From assembly GCA_004298605.1 (NCBI GenBank), contig SCPW01000004.1, positions 1 through 10,711 of the forward strand: DNA of 10,711 bases. Direction: 5' to 3'. Below, in pieces: positions 988-10,206 of the stretch; positions within the stretch are counted from its first letter, which is position 1, and every line of letters begins with the position of its first letter. The DNA comes from Gallionella sp. (GTDB lineage: Bacteria; Pseudomonadota; Gammaproteobacteria; Burkholderiales; Gallionellaceae). The notes under the pieces are model-generated. The model made no database searches. It was not told where the DNA came from and saw nothing but the letters and a program-made list of their open reading frames with translations. A program made the position numbers and the translations under genes.

Positions 988-2100
988 CTAAATCCGCACA
1001 TCCATTCCGTTGTTGCGCATTTCCTGTGCTAACGCCTTCGCCAGTTCGCTTACGCTTGCCAGGCTATTTTCCGGCAGCGGTGTGGACAGCCCCTTGATGA
1101 TTTCGCCTTGGCGCTGAAACGCGACTTCGCCATAGTTAAGCAGCGTCGTCAAGACGCTCTCATGCCCGATATTCTGGCTCCACGCCTTCAGTTGTTCATG
1201 AGTCTTGCAGACTTTCAGGCCAAGCTGGACGAGAGTATTTCTGATGCTATGCGGATTGAAATAGGGTAGCCCGGCATGGTCGAACGCTTGGCGAAATATC
1301 GTGCGTATGGGTGATGTTGTACTCCAGTGATTCCGCTCCAGACCTGCTGCTTCAAATTGCAGCGTTTGTCCGTGTGCAATCCGCGTTGCCGGAAAAAGCG
1401 GGTCATCATTTCCCCAGAGCAATTCTTCCCGCAGATAGCGCACCCATTCCGCCACGATTTCGTGAATTTCATCGCCCACCGGGAAGAAGAAGGTAGTAAA
1501 GGTTTTCCTAAACTTCGTTTTTACATCCCGCGCATCCTGGAACACATACCCTGCTTGCAAATCTATGTGCTTGAGTTTCATGGATGCGATGGCGCTATCC
1601 CGTGCGCCCGTCAGGATCGTGAAGGCAAAAAGGGCACGATTGCGGCGCGCAATATCGGTATGGGCTGGCATCATATCGAGAGCGCGCTTGAGTTGCTCCA
1701 GAGTCGGCCAGCGCTGTTCCCGTTGCGCGGTTGCGATGTGAGTATCATTCTTGGATAGGTTGAAATATTCCGCATCGGAATACTGAATACGGGTTTTGTA
1801 TCCGGTCTCACGCGAAAGCCATTGGAAGAACTGTTTCAGATGATTGAAGGTTGCGTGCAGCGTTGCCTTGCTGAGGTTTTCTCCCGAGCGCTGCCCCTTC
1901 TGTTCGGCGAGGTGTTTTTTGAAAGCGGATACCTGCTCGACATTAAACATCCTGAAGTCCTTGTGCTTGGTATAGCTCTCATAGCGACTGATGGCGCTTG
2001 CCACCCCGTCCACGCTTTGCACGCTCAGGCGCTTGGCCTCCTTCAGGAAGGAGAAATATTTGCGCTTGATCCGTTCATTATCTGCATTGTGTTTTGTCAT
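988..2100 (-). CDS. Tyrosine recombinase (phage-integrase family), divergent
   Basis: This 370-residue protein is a site-specific tyrosine recombinase, which cuts and rejoins DNA through a covalent phosphotyrosine intermediate. The N-terminal part, about residues 15-100, looks like a SAM-like core-binding domain (ATLHATFNHLKQFFQWL). The catalytic domain follows at about 130-335. Visible active-site residues are R167 (TGARDSA), a lysine near 194-196, H284 and R287 (PHSIRNT), H313 (NIGHES) and the nucleophile candidate Y323 (LLNYGEV). All expected positions are filled, so it should be active. It is unlike the second integrase in this window, and its active-site context is atypical (GARDSAI rather than G-x-R-x-SE). 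Its ATG overlaps the stop of the upstream helix-turn-helix/zinc protein (ATGA), so the two are probably translated together and may act together on DNA. It ends convergent to the XRE gene. Confidence 0.9.
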   Translation of the reverse strand: MTKHNADNERIKRKYFSFLKEAKRLSVQSVDGVASAISRYESYTKHKDFRMFNVEQVSAFKKHLAEQKGQRSGENLSKATLHATFNHLKQFFQWLSRETGYKTRIQYSDAEYFNLSKNDTHIATAQREQRWPTLEQLKRALDMMPAHTDIARRNRALFAFTILTGARDSAIASMKLKHIDLQAGYVFQDARDVKTKFRKTFTTFFFPVGDEIHEIVAEWVRYLREELLWGNDDPLFPATRIAHGQTLQFEAAGLERNHWSTTSPIRTIFRQAFDHAGLPYFNPHSIRNTLVQLGLKVCKTHEQLKAWSQNIGHESVLTTLLNYGEVAFQRQGEIIKGLSTPLPENSLASVSELAKALAQEMRNNGMDVRI

Positions 2101-2582
2101 GTCGCCATACTCCTGTTCAAGTCACCATTAACACTGGGCTGGTTACTCTCAACTATGTGTGGCTGAGGCAGCGACAATGTGATGTCCATTTTTCTGCGAA
2201 TCAGCGCCAGCCTGGCTGGGCCAACGCGCTGATTCATGATCGTGTAGCAGTCTGGGCATATAGCGACAAGATTCCAGATTTTTTCGGTTACAGGCATACA
2301 GTCCACCATGCCGCCGTCTGCCAATTTTGGCGCGTGGCACTTGAAACAATACATTTCACCCGGCTTGCAGGATTGTTTGTTTTTCGTGTTCTTCACCCGA
2401 TGGAATGCCGCAAGGTCGCTTCCAAGAATCAGCATTGGCCGCTTGTCATTGAGGGCTGGGAGTCCGGCCTTGATCCAATTGCGTACCGTGCCCTTGAAAA
2501 CGCCGTACAGGTCGGCAGCTTCCTCCACGGTGTAGCTGCGGTGGATTTTGGCGAGGTTGGGATTGTGGCGGCGTTTCTTCAT
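2097..2582 (-). CDS. Helix-turn-helix plus zinc-ribbon-like protein, partner of the recombinase
   Basis: This 161-residue protein starts with a helix-turn-helix of the excisionase/MerR-like type (YTVEEAADLYGVFKGTVRNWIKAGLP, about residues 17-42), followed by a short segment that reads like the wing (ILGSDLAAFHR). A cysteine-rich part comes next: C79-x-x-C82 and C109-x-x-C112, with C72 and C95 nearby. The four paired cysteines would suit a zinc ribbon. The last 25 residues look disordered. It overlaps the recombinase gene by four bases, so translational coupling is likely. The obvious inference is a DNA-binding accessory factor for that recombinase, for example a directionality factor or repressor. 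Nothing in the sequence proves this. The ribosome binding site is weak (GAG four bases before ATG). The palindrome array at 2633-2768 lies just upstream. Confidence 0.82.
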   Translation of the reverse strand: MKKRRHNPNLAKIHRSYTVEEAADLYGVFKGTVRNWIKAGLPALNDKRPMLILGSDLAAFHRVKNTKNKQSCKPGEMYCFKCHAPKLADGGMVDCMPVTEKIWNLVAICPDCYTIMNQRVGPARLALIRRKMDITLSLPQPHIVESNQPSVNGDLNRSMAT

Positions 2583-2632
2583 TGCTCAAGCCAGCGATAA
2601 CAACCTGCAAGGGTATGGCTATGTAGAAAGGT

Positions 2633-2768
2633 ACACGGTGGGCGTGTCATAACATTTCTGGAATTGGCTGATTTGACACGGTGGGCGTGTCATATTGCGC
2701 ATCAACCTGATTGGGGTCGCACGCCGGGCGTGTTATATCGGCATCATTTAACCCGCCGGGCGGGGGAG
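2633..2768. repeat. Array of palindromic repeats, three with exact 43-bp period
   Basis: Two identical 18-bp copies begin at 2633 and 2676 (ACACGGTGGGCGTGTCAT). A third, diverged copy begins at 2719 (GCACGCCGGGCGTGTTAT), and a weak fourth lies at 2750-2768. The shared GGGC core gives centre-to-centre distances of 43, 43 and 32 bp, close to four, four and three helical turns. The second copy extends to a full palindrome, TGACACG-N5-CGTGTCA (2674-2692). Copies 2 to 4 lie in the 3' coding part of the winged-helix-like gene. Copy 1 overlaps its stop and lies 51 bp upstream of the helix-turn-helix/zinc gene. Such spacing suggests cooperative binding of a dimeric protein. Confidence 0.75.
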
Positions 2769-3195
2769 TGATTCTAATTTTCAATGGGGGTAGTGGATTG
2801 TGCAATCGCCATGTGCTCACCGGCCTTTCGGTTGCCTTGATGTCGAGCTTGCCACCGCATTCGTCAATGGCGAAGAAGGTCAATGCATACAGTGTCGCGC
2901 GCTTGCGGTCGCCGTGGCGCGATACCAGAATCAGCTCACAGTCGAGCAGTTCCTGTCGTGCCTTGTTGAGGGTGTCCCGCGACTTCCAGCCGCGCTTCTC
3001 CATGAGTGTCCATGCCAGACATAGATCGCCGTTGTTGAAGCCCTTGAATTGCGCCAGAAGGTCATTCAACAGCTTGACCGCGTGGGCGGATAGGCCGATG
3101 TAAACCTGGCTTGCCAGCAAGCAGTGGGGCATGGCGGCGAATCCGCCCGGTTCCCGCCGTTCCGGTGATAGCCAGTTTTTCTTTTTTTGCGCCAC
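2647..3195 (-). CDS. Hypothetical winged-helix-like protein with repeat-bearing C-terminus
   Basis: This 182-residue protein has no function I can name with certainty. The N-terminus is basic (MAQKKKNWLSPERREPGGFAA). The segment from about residue 35 to 108 looks like a winged helix: LSAHAVKLLNDLLAQF, then KSRDTLNKARQELLDCELILVSRHG and a strand-like RATLYALTFFAI. It resembles small conserved proteins of proteobacterial integrative elements that begin with a KKKNW motif, followed by a proline/arginine-rich start and a Pro-rich tail. From residue 140 onward the protein is Pro-rich and low in structure, because this DNA carries the palindrome array. It starts at GTG (3193-3195), six bases after the stop of the upstream AlpA-like gene, with no clear ribosome binding site, so coupling to that gene is likely. 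A role in replication or in regulating the element is possible but is only inferred. Confidence 0.75.
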   Translation of the reverse strand: MAQKKKNWLSPERREPGGFAAMPHCLLASQVYIGLSAHAVKLLNDLLAQFKGFNNGDLCLAWTLMEKRGWKSRDTLNKARQELLDCELILVSRHGDRKRATLYALTFFAIDECGGKLDIKATERPVSTWRLHNPLPPLKIRITPPPGGLNDADITRPACDPNQVDAQYDTPTVSNQPIPEML

Positions 3196-3201
3196 GAGGC
3201 A

Positions 3202-3444
3202 TTAGGCGTTTGCTTGTTGCGCCTGCGCCGTGCTGGTAAATCGGCCACCCGCATTCAGCCAACTGTCCAAATCCTCCTTGAAATAGAAAATCCGCCCACG
3301 CTTCACGAACTTCGGCCCGGTGCCATTGCAGCGCATCATAGCCAGCGTTTTTTCGGATAACCCCACATAGGCTGAGGCATTGCGTGTATCAACCCTTCCG
3401 TCAGGATACATCACGATTTCATTTGAGCGGATATTCTTGGTCAT
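3202..3444 (-). CDS. AlpA/excisionase-like helix-turn-helix protein
   Basis: This is an 80-residue DNA-binding protein. Residues 22-64 form a typical MerR-like helix-turn-helix with wing: ASAYVGLSEKTLAMMRCNG, then GPKFVKRGRIFYFKEDLDSWL. This is the layout of AlpA and many excisionases, which bend DNA at attachment sites or regulate integrase genes. I chose the ATG at 3442-3444 because AGGT precedes it at a usable distance and it falls 35 bases downstream of the candidate -10. An in-frame ATG at 3505-3507 would add 21 residues rich in hydrophobic amino acids, but it lies inside the promoter and is unlikely. The gene is first in the leftward group and diverges from the ribbon-helix-helix gene, so it is well placed to control both promoters. 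Confidence 0.85.
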   Translation of the reverse strand: MTKNIRSNEIVMYPDGRVDTRNASAYVGLSEKTLAMMRCNGTGPKFVKRGRIFYFKEDLDSWLNAGGRFTSTAQAQQANA

Positions 3445-3478
3445 TGAGTTACCTATATATGTATTGAAAGACAGCACA

Positions 3479-3507
3479 AGAATATCCGATATGAAAATGT
3501 ATTGCAA
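3479..3507 (-). promoter_or_regulatory. Leftward promoter of the alpA-like operon
   Basis: On the minus strand TTGCAA (3502-3507) is followed after exactly 17 bases by TATTCT (3479-3484). A perfect inverted repeat ATATC-C-GATAT (3482-3492) covers the -10 and the adjoining spacer and may be an operator. The -35 hexamer is its own reverse complement and is shared with the rightward promoter. Confidence 0.5.
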
Positions 3508-4123: not shown

Positions 4124-5317
4124 ATGGCCAAGACATATACCAAGCTCACCCGTCCCGTTATGCGCAAACTTGCGCCCGGCGAGAAGGTCAACGAGCACGG
4201 CATAACCTTCGAGCGCCAAGCCAATGGCGACGGTGTGTTTACCGTCAACGTCATGGTGGATGGGCAGCGCATCCACCGCGTGATTGGGCGTGAATCTGAC
4301 GGCACCACGCGCACCCAAGCGGAAGAGTTTATCGAGAAGGCGAGGCAAGACGCGAAAACCGGCAGGCTCAATCTGCCCAACGGTCGCAAGATTGCGCTGG
4401 GGTTCTCCGATGCGGCAGATAAATATCAGGTGAAGCTGGCGCAAGAAGGTGGCAAAGACTTGAAGATGAAACGCTACCGTCTGGAAATGCACCTCAAGCC
4501 GTTTTTTGGCGATACGCCACTATCAAAAATTTGCACCTTCGACGTGGAACGCTACAAGAAACAACGTCTGGAAGAAGATGCGCAGCACAATGTATTGAAG
4601 GACGGCACGCCCATCTATAAGGGCAAGACCAAACCGGGCACGATCAATCGTGAACTGGCGGCACTCTCGCATTTGTTTACCAAGGCCGTGGAATGGGGCT
4701 GGCTGGATCACAAGCCCGCAGTCATCAAGCGCCTGAAAGAGAGCAGCGGGCGCATTACTTATTTGACGGTGGATCAGGTTGAGCGCTTGCTGAAAGCCGC
4801 GCAGGAAGACCAGAACATTCAGATTTACCCGTTCATCCTCATCGGCCTCGAAACCTCCATGCGCCGCAGCGAGATTTTTTCAGTTCGCCGCGAACACATC
4901 AACTTGGAACAGTTGACCATATCCATCCCCAAGGCGAAAGCGGGCGCGCGTGAGCAGCCCATCACTACGCACCTTGCCGATTTTCTGGTTGAGTACGTGG
5001 CAACCTTGCCGCCCGGCACGCCGTGGCTATTCCCTTCGCCAGCAGCAAAAGAAGGCCACACTATCAACCTCGACAAACCATTCCGCCGCGTAGTTGCCAA
5101 TGCAGGTTTGGATACATCCTTAGTCGTGCGGCACACCTTGCGCCACACCGCGATTACTCACTTGGTACAGGCGGGAGTGGACTTGCCAACAGTGAAGCGC
5201 ATTTCAGGCCACAAAAACCTGAGCATGGTGGAGCGATACAGCCACCAGAACGGCGCACATATCGAAGCTGCAATGGACAAACTCGCATCACGTTATCGCA
5301 AGGCTGAGGGAAGATGA
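4124..5317 (+). CDS. int: Tyrosine integrase of the tRNA-Asn element
   Basis: This 397-residue protein is a canonical phage/island integrase. An N-terminal arm-binding-like segment (about residues 1-90, with a beta-strand pattern around FTVNVMVDGQRIHRVIG) is followed by a core-binding domain (about 92-195). The catalytic domain runs from about 212 to 390. Active-site residues are R247 (TSMRRSEI), a lysine at 270-272, H337 and R340 (RHTLRHTA), H363 (SGHK) and the nucleophile Y372 (ERYSHQ). The set is complete. AGGAG at 4113-4117 precedes the ATG with good spacing. The stop overlaps the ATG of the next gene (ATGA), so the 453-residue cargo protein is made from the same message. The nearby tRNA-Asn 3' end, facing the element, is the likely attachment site. 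In many islands the integrase is directly next to the attachment site; here one cargo gene lies between. Confidence 0.95.
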   Translation: MAKTYTKLTRPVMRKLAPGEKVNEHGITFERQANGDGVFTVNVMVDGQRIHRVIGRESDGTTRTQAEEFIEKARQDAKTGRLNLPNGRKIALGFSDAADKYQVKLAQEGGKDLKMKRYRLEMHLKPFFGDTPLSKICTFDVERYKKQRLEEDAQHNVLKDGTPIYKGKTKPGTINRELAALSHLFTKAVEWGWLDHKPAVIKRLKESSGRITYLTVDQVERLLKAAQEDQNIQIYPFILIGLETSMRRSEIFSVRREHINLEQLTISIPKAKAGAREQPITTHLADFLVEYVATLPPGTPWLFPSPAAKEGHTINLDKPFRRVVANAGLDTSLVVRHTLRHTAITHLVQAGVDLPTVKRISGHKNLSMVERYSHQNGAHIEAAMDKLASRYRKAEGR

Positions 5318-6675
5318 GCACAGCCATATCCTGCGCACGCTTCAATGCCTACGTGGGGCTGACCCGCAGCCCGGCAACAGAGTTATTTTCTAATGAACTC
5401 GAATGGTTTGCTGGTCAAGGTGAGCGACTCCTTGGAGTCGTGATGCTGGACATCATAGACTACGATTTCGCATATGTTGTCCTTGCTAGGGATGAACACC
5501 AAAAATTTCGGGCCGTCGCATTCGATGCAAGCTACCCATCACAGGATGAGGCTCGTACCCGCCTGTTTCAGGAAATGGATAGATTGGCTCTTCTCGACGA
5601 TAGCGAATTCCATCAAGGGGATGGATTGGCTGGCATAGACTTGTTCTCGCCTATCACCCATCCTAACAAACAAAATTTAGCTTTCAAGTTAATCCATGAG
5701 GATGAGGGGCACTCATCTGCTCGATCCATCATTCAGGAAATGATGCATCACTACCGAGACGTGGATGGAAACTTTGTTGAGCAATTTCAAAGCACCGCCT
5801 TCGACGCCAGACTGTGGGAATTGTATCTATTCGCATATCTAAACGAGGAAGGTTTATGGATTGACCGTGAGCACCATGCACCTGATTTTATGGTGACCAA
5901 GTATGGTGAAACAGTATGTGTTGAGGCTGTAACTGTGAATCCATCACAATCGCCGATGCCCGGCATTGACCAAGCCAAGCTGAAATCCCCATCACCGGAA
6001 TATGTAGCAGAGCTTCTTGCTGGCTACATGCCTATCAAGTTTGGCAGTCCACTTTTCTCCAAACTGAGCAAGCGATATTGGGAGCTTGAGCACGTACAAG
6101 GCAAGCCATTGGTATTCGCAATCGCGGACTTTCACGAGACGGGTTCTATGATGTGGAGTTCTTCGGCTCTTTTTCAATATCTGTACGGGGTTCGGCATGA
6201 CTTTCATGTTGATGAAGATGGCCAACTAGTTATCTCGTCGCTGAAAGTAGAAAGCCATCGCTTGGGTGAGAAGGAAATCCCTTCCGGCTTCTTCTTCCAA
6301 AAGGATGCTGAATACGTCAGCGCAGTCATGTTCTCCGCAAGCGGAACAATTTCCAAGTTTAACCGCATGGGCAAACAAGCAGGATTCGGCTCCGATAGGG
6401 TACGAATGATCCGGTCAGGCACCTGCCATGACCATGATCCGAATGCGGCGCTGCCAAAACCTTTTACTATTGAGGTGACGCCAGATGCTGTCACTGAGTC
6501 ATGGGGAGAGGGACTCTCTATGTTTCATAACCCTAGAGCATTGCATCCTGTGCCCGAGGAATTATTCCCCTCTATCGCGCATCATCATTTTGTTGATGGC
6601 CAGATACTTAGCCGGTTGCCAGAATTTCACCCTTACTCATCAATGACCGTGATCTTAATTCCAAGGGATGAGTAG
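5314..6675 (+). CDS. Uncharacterised protein with PD-(D/E)XK nuclease-like motif
   Basis: I do not recognise a named family for this 453-residue protein. Residues 163-208 read like the core of a PD-(D/E)XK nuclease: a helix FDARLWELYLFAYLNEEG with E169, a strand, then P190-D191 in HAPDFMVTKYG and a strand VCVEAVTVN with E204. The lysine expected two residues after the last acidic position is replaced (EAV), so catalysis may be altered or the residue may come from elsewhere. No signal peptide or membrane segment is visible, so it should be cytoplasmic. It overlaps the integrase by four bases and is translationally coupled to it, which makes it cargo delivered with the integrase. Together with the restriction-modification genes on the same element, a role in defence or in stabilising the element is plausible but is inference. 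Composition is less GC-rich than the host gene at 7006. Confidence 0.8.
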   Translation: MSTAISCARFNAYVGLTRSPATELFSNELEWFAGQGERLLGVVMLDIIDYDFAYVVLARDEHQKFRAVAFDASYPSQDEARTRLFQEMDRLALLDDSEFHQGDGLAGIDLFSPITHPNKQNLAFKLIHEDEGHSSARSIIQEMMHHYRDVDGNFVEQFQSTAFDARLWELYLFAYLNEEGLWIDREHHAPDFMVTKYGETVCVEAVTVNPSQSPMPGIDQAKLKSPSPEYVAELLAGYMPIKFGSPLFSKLSKRYWELEHVQGKPLVFAIADFHETGSMMWSSSALFQYLYGVRHDFHVDEDGQLVISSLKVESHRLGEKEIPSGFFFQKDAEYVSAVMFSASGTISKFNRMGKQAGFGSDRVRMIRSGTCHDHDPNAALPKPFTIEVTPDAVTESWGEGLSMFHNPRALHPVPEELFPSIAHHHFVDGQILSRLPEFHPYSSMTVILIPRDE

Positions 6676-6699
6676 GTTGCAGGCGCGTTTGTTGGCATC

Positions 6700-6718
6700 A
6701 TTACACAGGAATTACACA
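6700..6718. repeat. Tandem ATTACACA repeat next to the tRNA
   Basis: ATTACACA occurs at 6700-6707 and again at 6711-6718, an 11-bp offset or about one helical turn. The pair lies about 50 bp inside the element from the tRNA 3' end. The position and spacing suit arm-type binding sites of the integrase, but no experimental or comparative support is visible here. Confidence 0.5.
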
Positions 6719-6733
6719 AAGCCCAGAAACAGA

Positions 6734-6759
6734 AAAGCCTTGCATCACTGCAAGGCTTT
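6734..6759 (-). terminator. Rho-independent terminator after tRNA-Asn
   Basis: A perfect 10-bp stem pairs 6734-6743 with 6750-6759 around a 6-base loop. Read on the minus strand, the stem ends in TTT and continues TTCTGTTTC, a usable U-rich tail nine bases downstream of the tRNA 3' end. In the other direction it may also stop transcription from the 5314-6675 gene. Confidence 0.8.
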
Positions 6760-6767
6760 GTATTATC

Positions 6768-6843
6768 TGGCTCCCCGACCTGGACTCGAACCAGGGACCT
6801 GCGGATTAACAGTCCGTCGCTCTACCGACTGAGCTATCAGGGA
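6768..6843 (-). tRNA. tRNA-Asn (GTT)
   Basis: The minus strand reads a complete 76-base tRNA. The acceptor stem TCCCTGA pairs with TCGGGGA with one G-U pair, followed by discriminator G and an encoded CCA (6768-6770). The D arm contains AGCTCAGTCGGTAGAGC. The anticodon loop CTGTTAA holds GTT, for asparagine. The T arm contains GGTTCGAGTCC. Its 3' end faces the integrase side of the window, the usual geometry when an element uses a tRNA gene as attachment site and rebuilds its 3' end. The gene is intact. Confidence 0.97.
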
Positions 6844-7005: not shown

Positions 7006-10000
7006 ATGAATGATAAAACCATTTTTGTCAGAACCAGTAAAGGCGAGAATGAGATTCGCAGCAGGACTGCGCTTCTTCCCGGCGATATCAAACGCGCCCT
7101 GTTGATGGTGGATGGAATTGCCACGTTTGGCGAGATCAGCAAACGCGCCGCACCCAGCCTGCGCGATGCCCTCGGCGAGATGTTCAAAGAACTGGAAAGG
7201 GGCGGCTTCATTCAGGATAAAGCCAGGATCGGCAACATCCCCGGAATGGCCGTTCCGTCCAGGATGATTGCTCCGACTAGAAAGTCGCCGGATACAAGCG
7301 CCAACGAACTGGATTTTACGGCTGCGTTCCGTGTGCCTTCCCCGGAGGCTCTGGCAGCCGAAGCGGCCAAGATGGAGGCCGGGAAGTTGAAAGCGGAAGC
7401 TGAAGCCCGTGCGCGCGCCGAGTCGGAAGCAAAAGCCAGGCATGAGCTCGAAGCCGTCCGGTTAAAGGCGCAACAGGAAGCGGAAACCGCGCGGGCGAAA
7501 GCGGAACAGGAGCGGTTAAAGGCGCAGCAGGAAGCCGCGCAAGCGCGCGCCGAACTGGAGGCGGCAAGAGCGGCAGCCGAGGCAGAGGCCCGTGCGCGCG
7601 CGGAGGCGGAAGCCAAAGCCAGGCAGGAGCTCGAAGCCGTCCGGTTAAAGGCGCAACAGGAGGCGGAAGCCGCCCGCCTCAAAGCCGAACAGGAGGCCGC
7701 CCAGGCGCGCGAGCAGGCAGAACTCATCAGGCAGCAGGCGGCAACCGAAGCACGGGCACGCGAGGAAGCCGAACACCGCGCCCGCGAAAAAGCGGAAGCC
7801 GCGCGCGTAAAGGCGGAACAGGAAGCGGCCAGAATCCGTGAAGAGGCGGAATGGCATGCCGAAGAAGAGGCGGGCGCGGCAGCCTTGAAGGAGCAGCAGG
7901 AAATCGAAGCAACGCTGCTGCAATCGGCGCTGGATTCGGCTCAGGCCATCGCGGCGGACGAGGCGTCCAAGCCGAAGCCGGTGGGTGGAGCGGCAGCGCG
8001 TTCCACCAGCGCGACGGTGTTGTTCATCGACGTGGTCGGCTACACCAGGCAGCCCGTCAATATACAGATCAGGCTCAAAAAACAATTCAATCAGTTGCTT
8101 TCCGATTGCCTGAAAGTTCAGGGGGATGGGGAGAGCATCATTCTGGACACCGGGGATGGCGCGGCGATAGGGTTTTTGCAACACCCCGAAGACGCGCTGG
8201 AAGTGGCGATGCAGTTCCGCAGGACGGTGATGGCCAACCAGCACCAGGATTACCGCGATCTCAAAGTGCGCATCGGAATTCATCTCGGCCCTATCAATGT
8301 CGCCAAAGACATGAATGGCCGGAGCAATATGGTGGGTGACGGCATCAACGACGCGCAGCGCGTAATGGGCTTTGCCGGTATCGACCAGATATATATTTCC
8401 CGCTCGTATTACGATTTCGTTTCGCGCCTGAGCGATGAATACGCCAGCTTGTTCAAATATCGCGGCTCGCAAAAAGATAAACACGGGCGCGAGCACCAGG
8501 TCTATGAATTGGTGGATGCCGTGATGCCCGTTGCGGGAGCCGTGATGCCGCAAACCGGCGAATCTGCCCCGGCGATAAAACTGGAGCCATTCAGCTTTGC
8601 GATACCCGATGCGGCGGATTTTCTTGCGCCTGCGGCGAAACACGAAAAACCGGGGGCACGGCAGAATGCTGCCGCGCAACTGTTGAACGATACAAGGCAG
8701 CTTAACCTGCCCGAAGAGGCGAAGAAAACGCTTGCCGCAGAACAAGCCGCGAACAGCCCGCCGCCATCGCCCGCACCACCGGTTCCGGAAAATATGCCCG
8801 AAGCGCCGCCGCCGGAAACAACGGTCAAGCCCGCCGCAAAAACGTATATGCCTTCCGCGGAAGAGGTGGTGAAGCTTGCGGAAGCGCAGGCCAAAATTTG
8901 GGCCGAGGCCGAGCAGCGCGCCAGGGAAAGCGCCAAGGCCAATGCCGGGCGCGCCGCGCAGCCGCATGTTGTGATGAAGGATGCGCCGGTTGCGCGGGCT
9001 CGCCGCAAGCCGGTGCCTTGGGGCAAGGTCGGCGCGGGGTTGTCCGTGGCGCTGCTGATCGCGCTGTTTGCCGTTCCGTTTATATTGCCCACGCGGGGCT
9101 ATGCGGCCAGGATCGAACAACTGCTTGCCGCCAGGCTGCAACAGCCGGTGCATATCGGGCATTTGGCGGGCCGCTTGCTGCCCGCGCCGCGCTTGGAATT
9201 GAGCGATGTATCGATCGGCGAAACGAAGCAAATCCAAGCGCATCATGCGCGGGTGAATTTCCCGTTGACCGCATTGTTTGCTTCGGTCAAACCGGTCGAT
9301 AGCGTCGAGTTGGAAGGCGTGCAAATCAATGGTGCGGCGTTGCAGCACATCTCCGCATGGTTGCAGCAAATCGCCGCCGCCCCGGAGTACCCGGTTGCCC
9401 GCATCGAATTGAGCCAGGGCAAGCTGGAAGCGGACGGCATCCAACTGTCCGGTGTAGGTGGCGAGTTAAATTTCGATCCATCCGGAAAATTTACCCGGGC
9501 AAAATTACATGCCGAGGGAAACAAATTTGCGCTGGGCATCAACGCCGCGCCGGAAAATAAAATGCAGGTATCGGTCACGGTGCGCGGCAGCGCGTTGCCG
9601 CTGTTGCCGGGCTGGGTTTTCGATGAGTTGAACGCAAAGGGCGAACTGACCCGCGACGGCCTGGCGATTACCGACATGGACAGCCGTATCATGGGCGGCA
9701 TATTGCTCGGCGATGCCCGCATTGACTGGCGTTCCGGCTGGCGCGCCCAAGGGGCGCTGACGGCCAAAACCATCACCGTGCAGAATATGGGCACGGCGCT
9801 GAGCGGCGATATGGATGGCACGGCGCACTTTCAGATGCAATCGGCAAATTTATCCGGGCTTGTAAAAACTGCGGCCATGGATGGCGCTTTTGTCATCAGG
9901 AAGGGTGTTATCAACGGTATCGATATTGTTGAAACGGTCCGCCTGCGCAGCAAGGAAAGCGGCCCGGGCGGACGGACCCGTTTCGACGAGTTGAGCGGCA

Positions 10001-10206
10001 ATTTATCTGTCGTAAACGGCGCCTACGCCTTCCGGCAACTGAAAATGAATGCGGGCATGTTGGCTGCAACGGGTACGCTGGATATTTCCGGCAGGCAGTT
10101 GTCGGGGCGCATCTCCGCCGATTTGACGATGCGCGCGGGGGCGGGGCCAACCGTGTTGCAGGTTGGCGGAACCGCCGACAACCCCTCGCTGCGCGCCGCC
10201 CGCTAA
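7006..10206 (+). CDS. Class III nucleotide cyclase fused to a coiled coil and an AsmA-like periplasmic domain
   Basis: This 1066-residue protein has five parts. Residues 1-75 look like a winged helix (DIKRALLMVDGIATFGEI, then LKELERGGFI-like ending). Residues 115-315 are a long Ala/Glu/Arg/Lys coiled coil with internal duplication. Residues 334-505 are a class III adenylate/guanylate cyclase domain: metal-binding D342 in FIDVVGYT and D384 in TGDGAAIGF, RIGIHLGPI at 422-430, and N448 with R452 in GINDAQRV. The usual adenylate-specifying Lys and Asp positions appear to be L380 and N441, so the substrate cannot be called. A Pro-rich linker (585-610) and a second helical segment follow. One membrane helix (about 675-694) comes after a basic RARRK, which places the cyclase in the cytoplasm. 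Residues 697-1066 resemble AsmA, an inner-membrane-anchored periplasmic lipid-handling family. No clear ribosome binding site precedes the ATG. The gene is high in GC and belongs to the host. Confidence 0.88.
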   Translation: MNDKTIFVRTSKGENEIRSRTALLPGDIKRALLMVDGIATFGEISKRAAPSLRDALGEMFKELERGGFIQDKARIGNIPGMAVPSRMIAPTRKSPDTSANELDFTAAFRVPSPEALAAEAAKMEAGKLKAEAEARARAESEAKARHELEAVRLKAQQEAETARAKAEQERLKAQQEAAQARAELEAARAAAEAEARARAEAEAKARQELEAVRLKAQQEAEAARLKAEQEAAQAREQAELIRQQAATEARAREEAEHRAREKAEAARVKAEQEAARIREEAEWHAEEEAGAAALKEQQEIEATLLQSALDSAQAIAADEASKPKPVGGAAARSTSATVLFIDVVGYTRQPVNIQIRLKKQFNQLLSDCLKVQGDGESIILDTGDGAAIGFLQHPEDALEVAMQFRRTVMANQHQDYRDLKVRIGIHLGPINVAKDMNGRSNMVGDGINDAQRVMGFAGIDQIYISRSYYDFVSRLSDEYASLFKYRGSQKDKHGREHQVYELVDAVMPVAGAVMPQTGESAPAIKLEPFSFAIPDAADFLAPAAKHEKPGARQNAAAQLLNDTRQLNLPEEAKKTLAAEQAANSPPPSPAPPVPENMPEAPPPETTVKPAAKTYMPSAEEVVKLAEAQAKIWAEAEQRARESAKANAGRAAQPHVVMKDAPVARARRKPVPWGKVGAGLSVALLIALFAVPFILPTRGYAARIEQLLAARLQQPVHIGHLAGRLLPAPRLELSDVSIGETKQIQAHHARVNFPLTALFASVKPVDSVELEGVQINGAALQHISAWLQQIAAAPEYPVARIELSQGKLEADGIQLSGVGGELNFDPSGKFTRAKLHAEGNKFALGINAAPENKMQVSVTVRGSALPLLPGWVFDELNAKGELTRDGLAITDMDSRIMGGILLGDARIDWRSGWRAQGALTAKTITVQNMGTALSGDMDGTAHFQMQSANLSGLVKTAAMDGAFVIRKGVINGIDIVETVRLRSKESGPGGRTRFDELSGNLSVVNGAYAFRQLKMNAGMLAATGTLDISGRQLSGRISADLTMRAGAGPTVLQVGGTADNPSLRAAR
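7399..7675 (+). repeat. 183-bp internal tandem duplication in the coiled coil
   Basis: Two stretches offset by exactly 183 bp (61 codons) are nearly identical. A 35-base exact match occurs at 7444-7478 and 7627-7661. At protein level residues 130-169 and 191-230 differ at only a few positions. A shorter, related unit lies between them at about 7500-7550. The exact match at DNA level, including synonymous sites, points to a recent in-frame duplication and to possible length variation between strains. Confidence 0.85.

Follow-up and report, generated by a model that had tools for sequence, protein, structure and literature searches.

Genes and features of the window

The window, a stretch of 10,711 nucleotides from Gallionella sp., makes up a single contig (C296) in an assembly of 462 contigs. 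Read leftwards, its gene order starts with a tRNA-Asn(GTT) gene (6768-6843, minus strand), next to which lie a tyrosine integrase gene (4124-5317, plus strand), a helix-turn-helix gene (3202-3507, minus strand), and a gene with a GTG start (2647-3195, minus strand) for a winged-helix protein of 182 amino acids, a putative initiator. These are followed by a second helix-turn-helix gene, assigned by Pfam to HTH_17 (2097-2582, minus strand), and a second tyrosine recombinase gene (988-2100, minus strand). The integrase, the first helix-turn-helix gene, and the second recombinase were identified from the list of open reading frames and Pfam. The second recombinase gene and the small helix-turn-helix gene before it (together 988-2582, minus strand) overlap by ATGA. 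The integrase adjoins tRNA-Asn(GTT) (4124-6843), the typical picture of an island inserted at the 3' end of a tRNA gene, and the other end of the island would fall beyond the start of the contig. A further open reading frame of 1,066 codons (7006-10206, plus strand) appears, by eye only, to encode a long repetitive stretch rich in Ala, Glu, and Arg, a cyclase-like middle, and an AsmA-like end.

Four 15-bp hyphenated palindromes, each with two 5-bp arms around a 5-bp centre, lie on the minus strand at 2633-2765, at successive distances of 43, 43, and 32 bp, and overlap the 3' end and the stop codon of the winged-helix gene. Palindromes 1 (2633-2647) and 2 (2676-2690) share the sequence ACACGCCCACCGTGT, palindrome 3 (2719-2733) reads ACACGCCCGGCGTGC, and the weak palindrome 4 (2751-2765) reads CCCCGCCCGGCGGGT; three relatives (L030, L032, and L033) have a fourth site at the place that matches palindrome 4. 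A direct-repeat search returned a single family, three 19-bp copies at 2633, 2676, and 2719 with a period of 43 bp, and the repeat pattern, with up to three mismatches allowed, matched only three places (0.05 expected; at least three matches in 0 of 200 shuffles). The three palindromes 43 bp apart with a weaker fourth 32 bp on, which a first-pass annotation of the sequence had pointed out, are borne out. The same annotation placed the array inside the winged-helix gene; this is true of three copies, which are wholly coding, but copy 1 is only touched by the stop codon (2647-2649). As it had also proposed, the copies lie in different frames and encode different peptides (YDTPTVS, DITRPACD, and TPPPGG). 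Palindrome 1 is abutted by an AT-rich tail, ACCTTTCTACATAGCCAT (2615-2632, minus strand), to which the annotation had not referred and which is a candidate unwinding element or, on another reading discussed below, a -10-like element.

Third codon positions were compared among seven genes of the window's clade. The majority base there has a mean frequency of 0.65 over 134 positions of the gene body, rising to 0.75 over 24 positions of the inter-palindrome spacers and to 0.87 within the three palindromes, this last figure resting on few positions (10, of which 5 are invariant). The whole array region is therefore constrained at the DNA level, and the palindromes most.

A family of small winged-helix proteins

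The winged-helix protein of the window matches no Pfam family, and in PHROGs it has weak matches (E values of 0.03 to 0.05) to O-like and DnaD-like initiation proteins. It has 202 relatives at an E value of at most 0.001, and a search with a family profile gave 2,618 proteins at an E value of at most 1e-10; no Pfam domain was found among the 120 matches listed in the single-protein search or the 120 listed in the profile search. The closest relative with a named source, among the matches listed, is labelled Gallionella and is 90% identical. A relative is encoded by 22 of the 199 genomes searched, its own genome counted. Protein searches of plasmids and phages gave one distant plasmid match and two phage records, and a DNA search of plasmids with the winged-helix gene region gave no match. 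Scans for loci took in 4 viral loci, then the best 80 of 109 confirmed genome loci, and then 18 viral loci; from 127 loci, 17 duplicates were removed and 3 (L024, L026, and L027) were absent from the results, leaving the 107 loci studied here, whose record titles name mostly beta- and gammaproteobacteria.

Family proteins are mostly about 130 to 185 amino acids long and end soon after the winged-helix region, too early to carry a C-terminal replisome-contact domain like that of RepA_N initiators. Compared with solved structures, the family profile found its best matches, over residues 14 to 103, in the RepA_N initiators 4pta, 4pql, 5kbj, and 4pt7 (E values of 0.011 to 0.084), with MarR-type regulators (ZitR) close behind (0.06 to 0.10). 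When 83 members were searched individually against PHROGs, 33 matched a DnaD-like helicase-loader family and 27 an O-like initiation family; the Pfam matches of the same members were scattered over HTH_36, GntR, MarR, and PadR (one to three members each), and none of the 83 matched RepA_N (PF06970) at an E value of at most 0.01. The family profile thus weakly resembles the initiator domains of RepA_N, DnaD, and lambda O proteins, without their C-terminal part.

Clustering of the gene neighbourhoods placed integrases, named by eye, near 76 of the 107 loci and small AlpA-like genes, likewise named by eye, near 44. Phage morphogenesis clusters accompany 16 loci, with capsid, portal, protease, and small terminase genes confirmed by Pfam in representatives, and restriction-modification-like clusters, again named by eye, accompany 15. 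We found no description of the family or of the array in the open-licence literature, where absence is not proof.

Arrays in relatives keep their spacing and change their sequence

Across loci, the array stays with the winged-helix gene, following it in beta- and gammaproteobacterial integrative elements, and no observation linked it to a recombinase or to the end of an element. Chains of related palindromes above threshold were present in 55 of the 104 loci (out of 107) taken for this test, compared with 0 of 1,040 shuffles and 2 of 374 flank controls; the other 49 fall short of the threshold. The half-sites are diverse and include ACACG, CTACG, CTACA, GTACG, ATGCA, CCCCA, and ATACA. Adjacent spacings (84, from 28 distinct arrays) cluster at 22, 32 to 33, and 42 to 45 bp, with a period of 10.5 to 10.8 bp (R = 0.82; equalled by 0 of 5,000 uniform sets), and some are off phase (e.g., 37, 50, and 93 bp). 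Among the 47 strong arrays, one to five sites lie wholly before the stop codon in 42 and none does in the other 5; in 11 of the 47 the stop codon interrupts a site. The comparison of homologous gene 3' ends that the first-pass annotation had called for thus gives the result it anticipated: the spacing stays near whole helical turns, as the annotation had noted for the window alone, while site sequence, peptide, and stop position vary, which supports its view that selection acts on DNA.

In four loci with CCCCA/CCCCG-type sites (L017, L019, L097, and L105), the last site looks hybrid, with a cognate left arm and a GTAC-like right arm joined to the tail, as though a separate constraint acted on the arm beside the tail. 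Two elements that share a half-site are present together in the genome of Nitrotoga LAW (L072 and L075) and in that of Hydrocarboniphaga effusa AP103 (L074 and L076), and equal specificity is therefore no bar to co-residence while the elements are integrated.

The likely binder of the array

Co-variation between half-site and protein was examined in the 57 arrays, out of 98, that had a score of at least 6, with the 41 weaker arrays left out. Residue 73 of the winged-helix protein, which would lie in the recognition helix, is Arg in 15 of 15 ACACG arrays and Glu in 15 of 15 CTAC[G/A] arrays; in the 13 GTACG arrays it is Lys in 10 and Pro in 3. Lys-73 also occurs with CCCCA (three arrays), CCCCG, GTACT, and TACCC, and one Arg-73 occurs with GTTCC. 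Residue 73 carries the highest normalised information on the half-site (0.84, compared with 0.63 for the next column). The residue is different in 6 of 7 disjoint close pairs whose half-sites differ and in 1 of 17 whose half-sites agree (Fisher's P = 0.0003, uncorrected; the column is one of 123). With the recognition helix left out of tree building, the best tree requires five changes each for Arg-73 and ACACG, and six each for Glu-73 and CTAC; the tree-based co-variation is not significant by itself, because well-supported branches leave only two independent pairs per residue test.

Since the half-site co-varies with residue 73, the likely binder of the array is the product of the overlapping gene itself. 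Outside the array, 45 loci (440 kb in all) contained no exact site (control mean, 0.45), one-mismatch sites in those loci showed no excess (10, compared with 10.3 in the control), and the host genome likewise showed none (58, compared with 81 for the reversed pattern). The first-pass annotation had suggested that one of the small proteins encoded here could bind the array, and it is the winged-helix protein to which the co-variation points. The downstream helix-turn-helix/zinc protein and the second recombinase were set aside because arrays occur without them and with unrelated downstream genes; relatives of the helix-turn-helix protein cluster in only three loci.

An AT-rich tail beside the last site

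Under a strict rule, a tail together with a palindrome was found in 70 of 106 loci, compared with 17 of 387 flank stretches. A looser rule, which had no control and demanded a partial palindrome, AT content, and the letters TA and CCA, found a tail in 98 of 107 loci. The consensus is about ACCTTTATAGATNTACCAT and is partly imposed by the rule, the TA and CCA of the logo being there because they were required. When 13-bp windows across about 820 bp were compared in 56 arrays identified without use of the tail, the least stable one lay right after the last site in 29, and it lay after earlier sites in 3 of 169 places. No extended AT-rich region and no excess of DnaA boxes or IHF sites was found after the tail. 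For plasmid Rep proteins, sequence-specific binding to single strands of the unwinding element has been described (PMC4081077); binding of this kind could account for the conservation of the tail.

Two exact tail patterns, neither of which matches the window's own tail, had no match in 369 and 398 genomes; these searches give no sign of a common host element, although variants of the patterns may occur. In named plasmids and phages the tail had no match or only chance-level matches. Most matches of the tail patterns in viral contigs have no array, so a tail match alone means little and adjacency is what counts; besides the family members L134, L119, and L151, only L132 had repeats. In two loci (L003 and L005), a noncoding stretch past the tail carries repeated CCTCTTCGGAAAA (L003) and GTTACTGAAACGTTAC-like motifs. 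In seven others (L047, L066, L069, and L111 to L114), a terminator-like hairpin surrounds the second-last palindrome and ends 31 to 34 nucleotides before the tail.

Contig L132 (40.7 kb) carries parA and, near it, a winged-helix gene of another kind, whose RepA_N-, DnaD-, and O-like matches are weak (E = 0.069 against Pfam RepA_N, PF06970, below the cut-off). After this gene come four exact 19-bp direct repeats spaced by 23, 54, and 82 bp, of which 82 bp does not amount to whole turns, and the last repeat abuts CACCTTTATAGATATACCAT, a tail of the same kind. No relative of the L132 protein was found in plasmids or phages, and viral contigs yielded only the protein itself. At the family gene of phage record U1, called replication protein O by its depositors, are four GTACAGAAACTGTAC palindromes and a tail, with spacings of 22, 54, and 35 bp, of which the last is not whole turns.

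A probable replication origin and its alternatives

We consider it probable that the array and tail (about 2615-2765) form the replication origin of the integrated element, used after excision. Of the three functions that the first-pass annotation had offered (operators, iterons, and recombination accessory sites), it is the iterons that the evidence favours, and the best reading is of iterons and an unwinding element, inside and just after the initiator gene, that would work by analogy with ori-lambda and pSK41. The winged-helix protein would bind each 15-bp palindrome via its recognition helix, probably as a dimer. Because the sites are about whole helical turns apart, three to five dimers would share one face of the helix, building a nucleoprotein complex that would open the AT-rich tail beside the last site, where enzymes of the host, a helper phage, or the element could be loaded. 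The computations show the array, its phasing, the DNA-level constraint, the co-variation of site and residue 73, the lack of a site excess elsewhere, and the low stability after the last site; dimer binding, melting, and loading, and indeed replication as the outcome at all, are what we infer from these results, the initiator-like matches, the L132 case, and the precedents below. Counted against an origin are the lack of a long AT-rich region, of a DnaA or IHF excess, and of a replisome-binding domain in the proteins; the weakness of the initiator likeness, with ZitR near and a few members matching GntR, MarR, or PadR; an enrichment of gene starts with Shine-Dalgarno sequences after the tail; and the off-phase last spacings of L132 and U1.

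That enrichment would fit a reading in which the winged-helix protein instead activates transcription from the phased sites, with the tail as a -10-like element starting a downstream operon of capsid, restriction-modification, or, in the window, helix-turn-helix and recombinase genes. Start codons that have a Shine-Dalgarno sequence occur no more than 80 nucleotides from the tail in 23 of 95 loci (6.6% at random) and within 200 nucleotides in 39 of 95 (17.6%), the first downstream open reading frame is on the same strand in 69 of 91 loci, and 15 of 98 loci have a terminator-like hairpin before the tail (3.9% of shuffles), although 13 such hairpins turn up on the other strand as well. Yet 56 of 95 loci have no such gene start within 200 nucleotides, and the tails make poor sigma-70 promoters: in their best -10 register the second A reaches 88% but the last-base T only 44%, the variable palindrome takes up the -35 region, and positions 2400-3300 of the window hold no sigma-70-type match. 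Since the family's likeness is mainly to initiators, and ori-lambda, pSK41, and the PLE satellites offer precedents, we favour an origin and regard an activator-dependent promoter as a rather unlikely, though serious, competitor. It is improbable that the array is instead the operator of a repressor or silencing complex, through which the winged-helix protein would shut off the downstream operon. Phased sites would suit cooperative binding, and the tail-side site would cover the stretch upstream of a -10 box, but neither the tail logo nor positions 2400-3300 show a strong promoter to repress, and sites are not in excess elsewhere, for example at the start of the winged-helix gene itself. We reject, as very improbable indeed, selection on a conserved C-terminal peptide with the palindromes as by-products. 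TRPACD and YDTPxVSN do recur among close relatives, and of 29 arrays with at least two sites near or before the stop codon, 10 keep to one frame; but the other 19 use two or three frames, the entire array lies 3' of the stop codon in L121 and L109, and third codon positions are constrained.

Extending the origin reading to the whole family, we suggest, as a tentative idea that may well prove too broad, that the 2,618 proteins (E value of at most 1e-10) form a large unnamed family of nearly bare winged-helix initiators, each linked in DNA to its own origin of phased palindromes and a short sequence-conserved unwinding element, a like element following the iterons of the unrelated winged-helix gene on the parA-bearing contig. 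Specificity would drift largely via one recognition-helix residue, so that the module rewrites its own code around an unchanging tail, which common host or helper machinery would read. If the origin reading is right, the replication module of these islands and satellites is compact and portable, and its binding code is partly readable from sequence, residue 73 corresponding to the half-site. Two questions would then become testable: how so small a winged-helix protein, lacking a loader domain, could initiate replication, and how an origin and its initiator remain matched as each of them changes. Origins could also be marked in many integrative elements in which the replication genes at present carry the label hypothetical.

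Comparison with known replication systems

Phage lambda O is a winged-helix-type initiator with a further domain that contacts P, unlike the family protein, which is little more than a winged helix, and the AT-rich region of ori-lambda is longer. The repeats of ori-lambda are 19 bp and lie mid-gene, whereas the sites described here are 15 bp and lie in and after the 3' end. What the two would share is an origin inside its own initiator gene, built from several hyphenated inverted repeats, which are described as binding dimers at ori-lambda (PMC5043065); here the position of the array and the residue-73 co-variation point to the same arrangement, in which the protein is predicted to bind the repeats. 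RepA_N plasmids such as pSK41, for which four Rep boxes are reported inside rep (PMC5703833), likewise have a winged-helix DNA-binding domain, to which the family bears weak profile similarity; RepA_N proteins, however, carry a C-terminal domain (contacting DnaG in pSK41), whereas none of the 83 members searched matched Pfam RepA_N at an E value of at most 0.01.

Gram-negative PICIs are described as integrase and AlpA-type elements with an origin immediately 3' of the replication gene (PMC6092414), an arrangement like that proposed here. In PICI origins an AT-rich region sits between two sets of iterons, and the replication protein is of the primase type, whereas in the arrays listed here one phased set lies on one side of the tail, with no wider AT-rich region beside it, and the protein is a bare winged helix. 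In PLE satellites the origin lies in a large non-coding region rather than in repA, the integrase is a serine integrase, and RepA has a C-terminal domain. They nevertheless provide a close parallel to the changing half-sites seen here, in that the RepA_N domain and the semi-palindromic iterons of the origin are reported to co-vary and to be swapped between satellites (PMC7145576, PMC8263062), just as residue 73 and the half-site co-vary in the present family.
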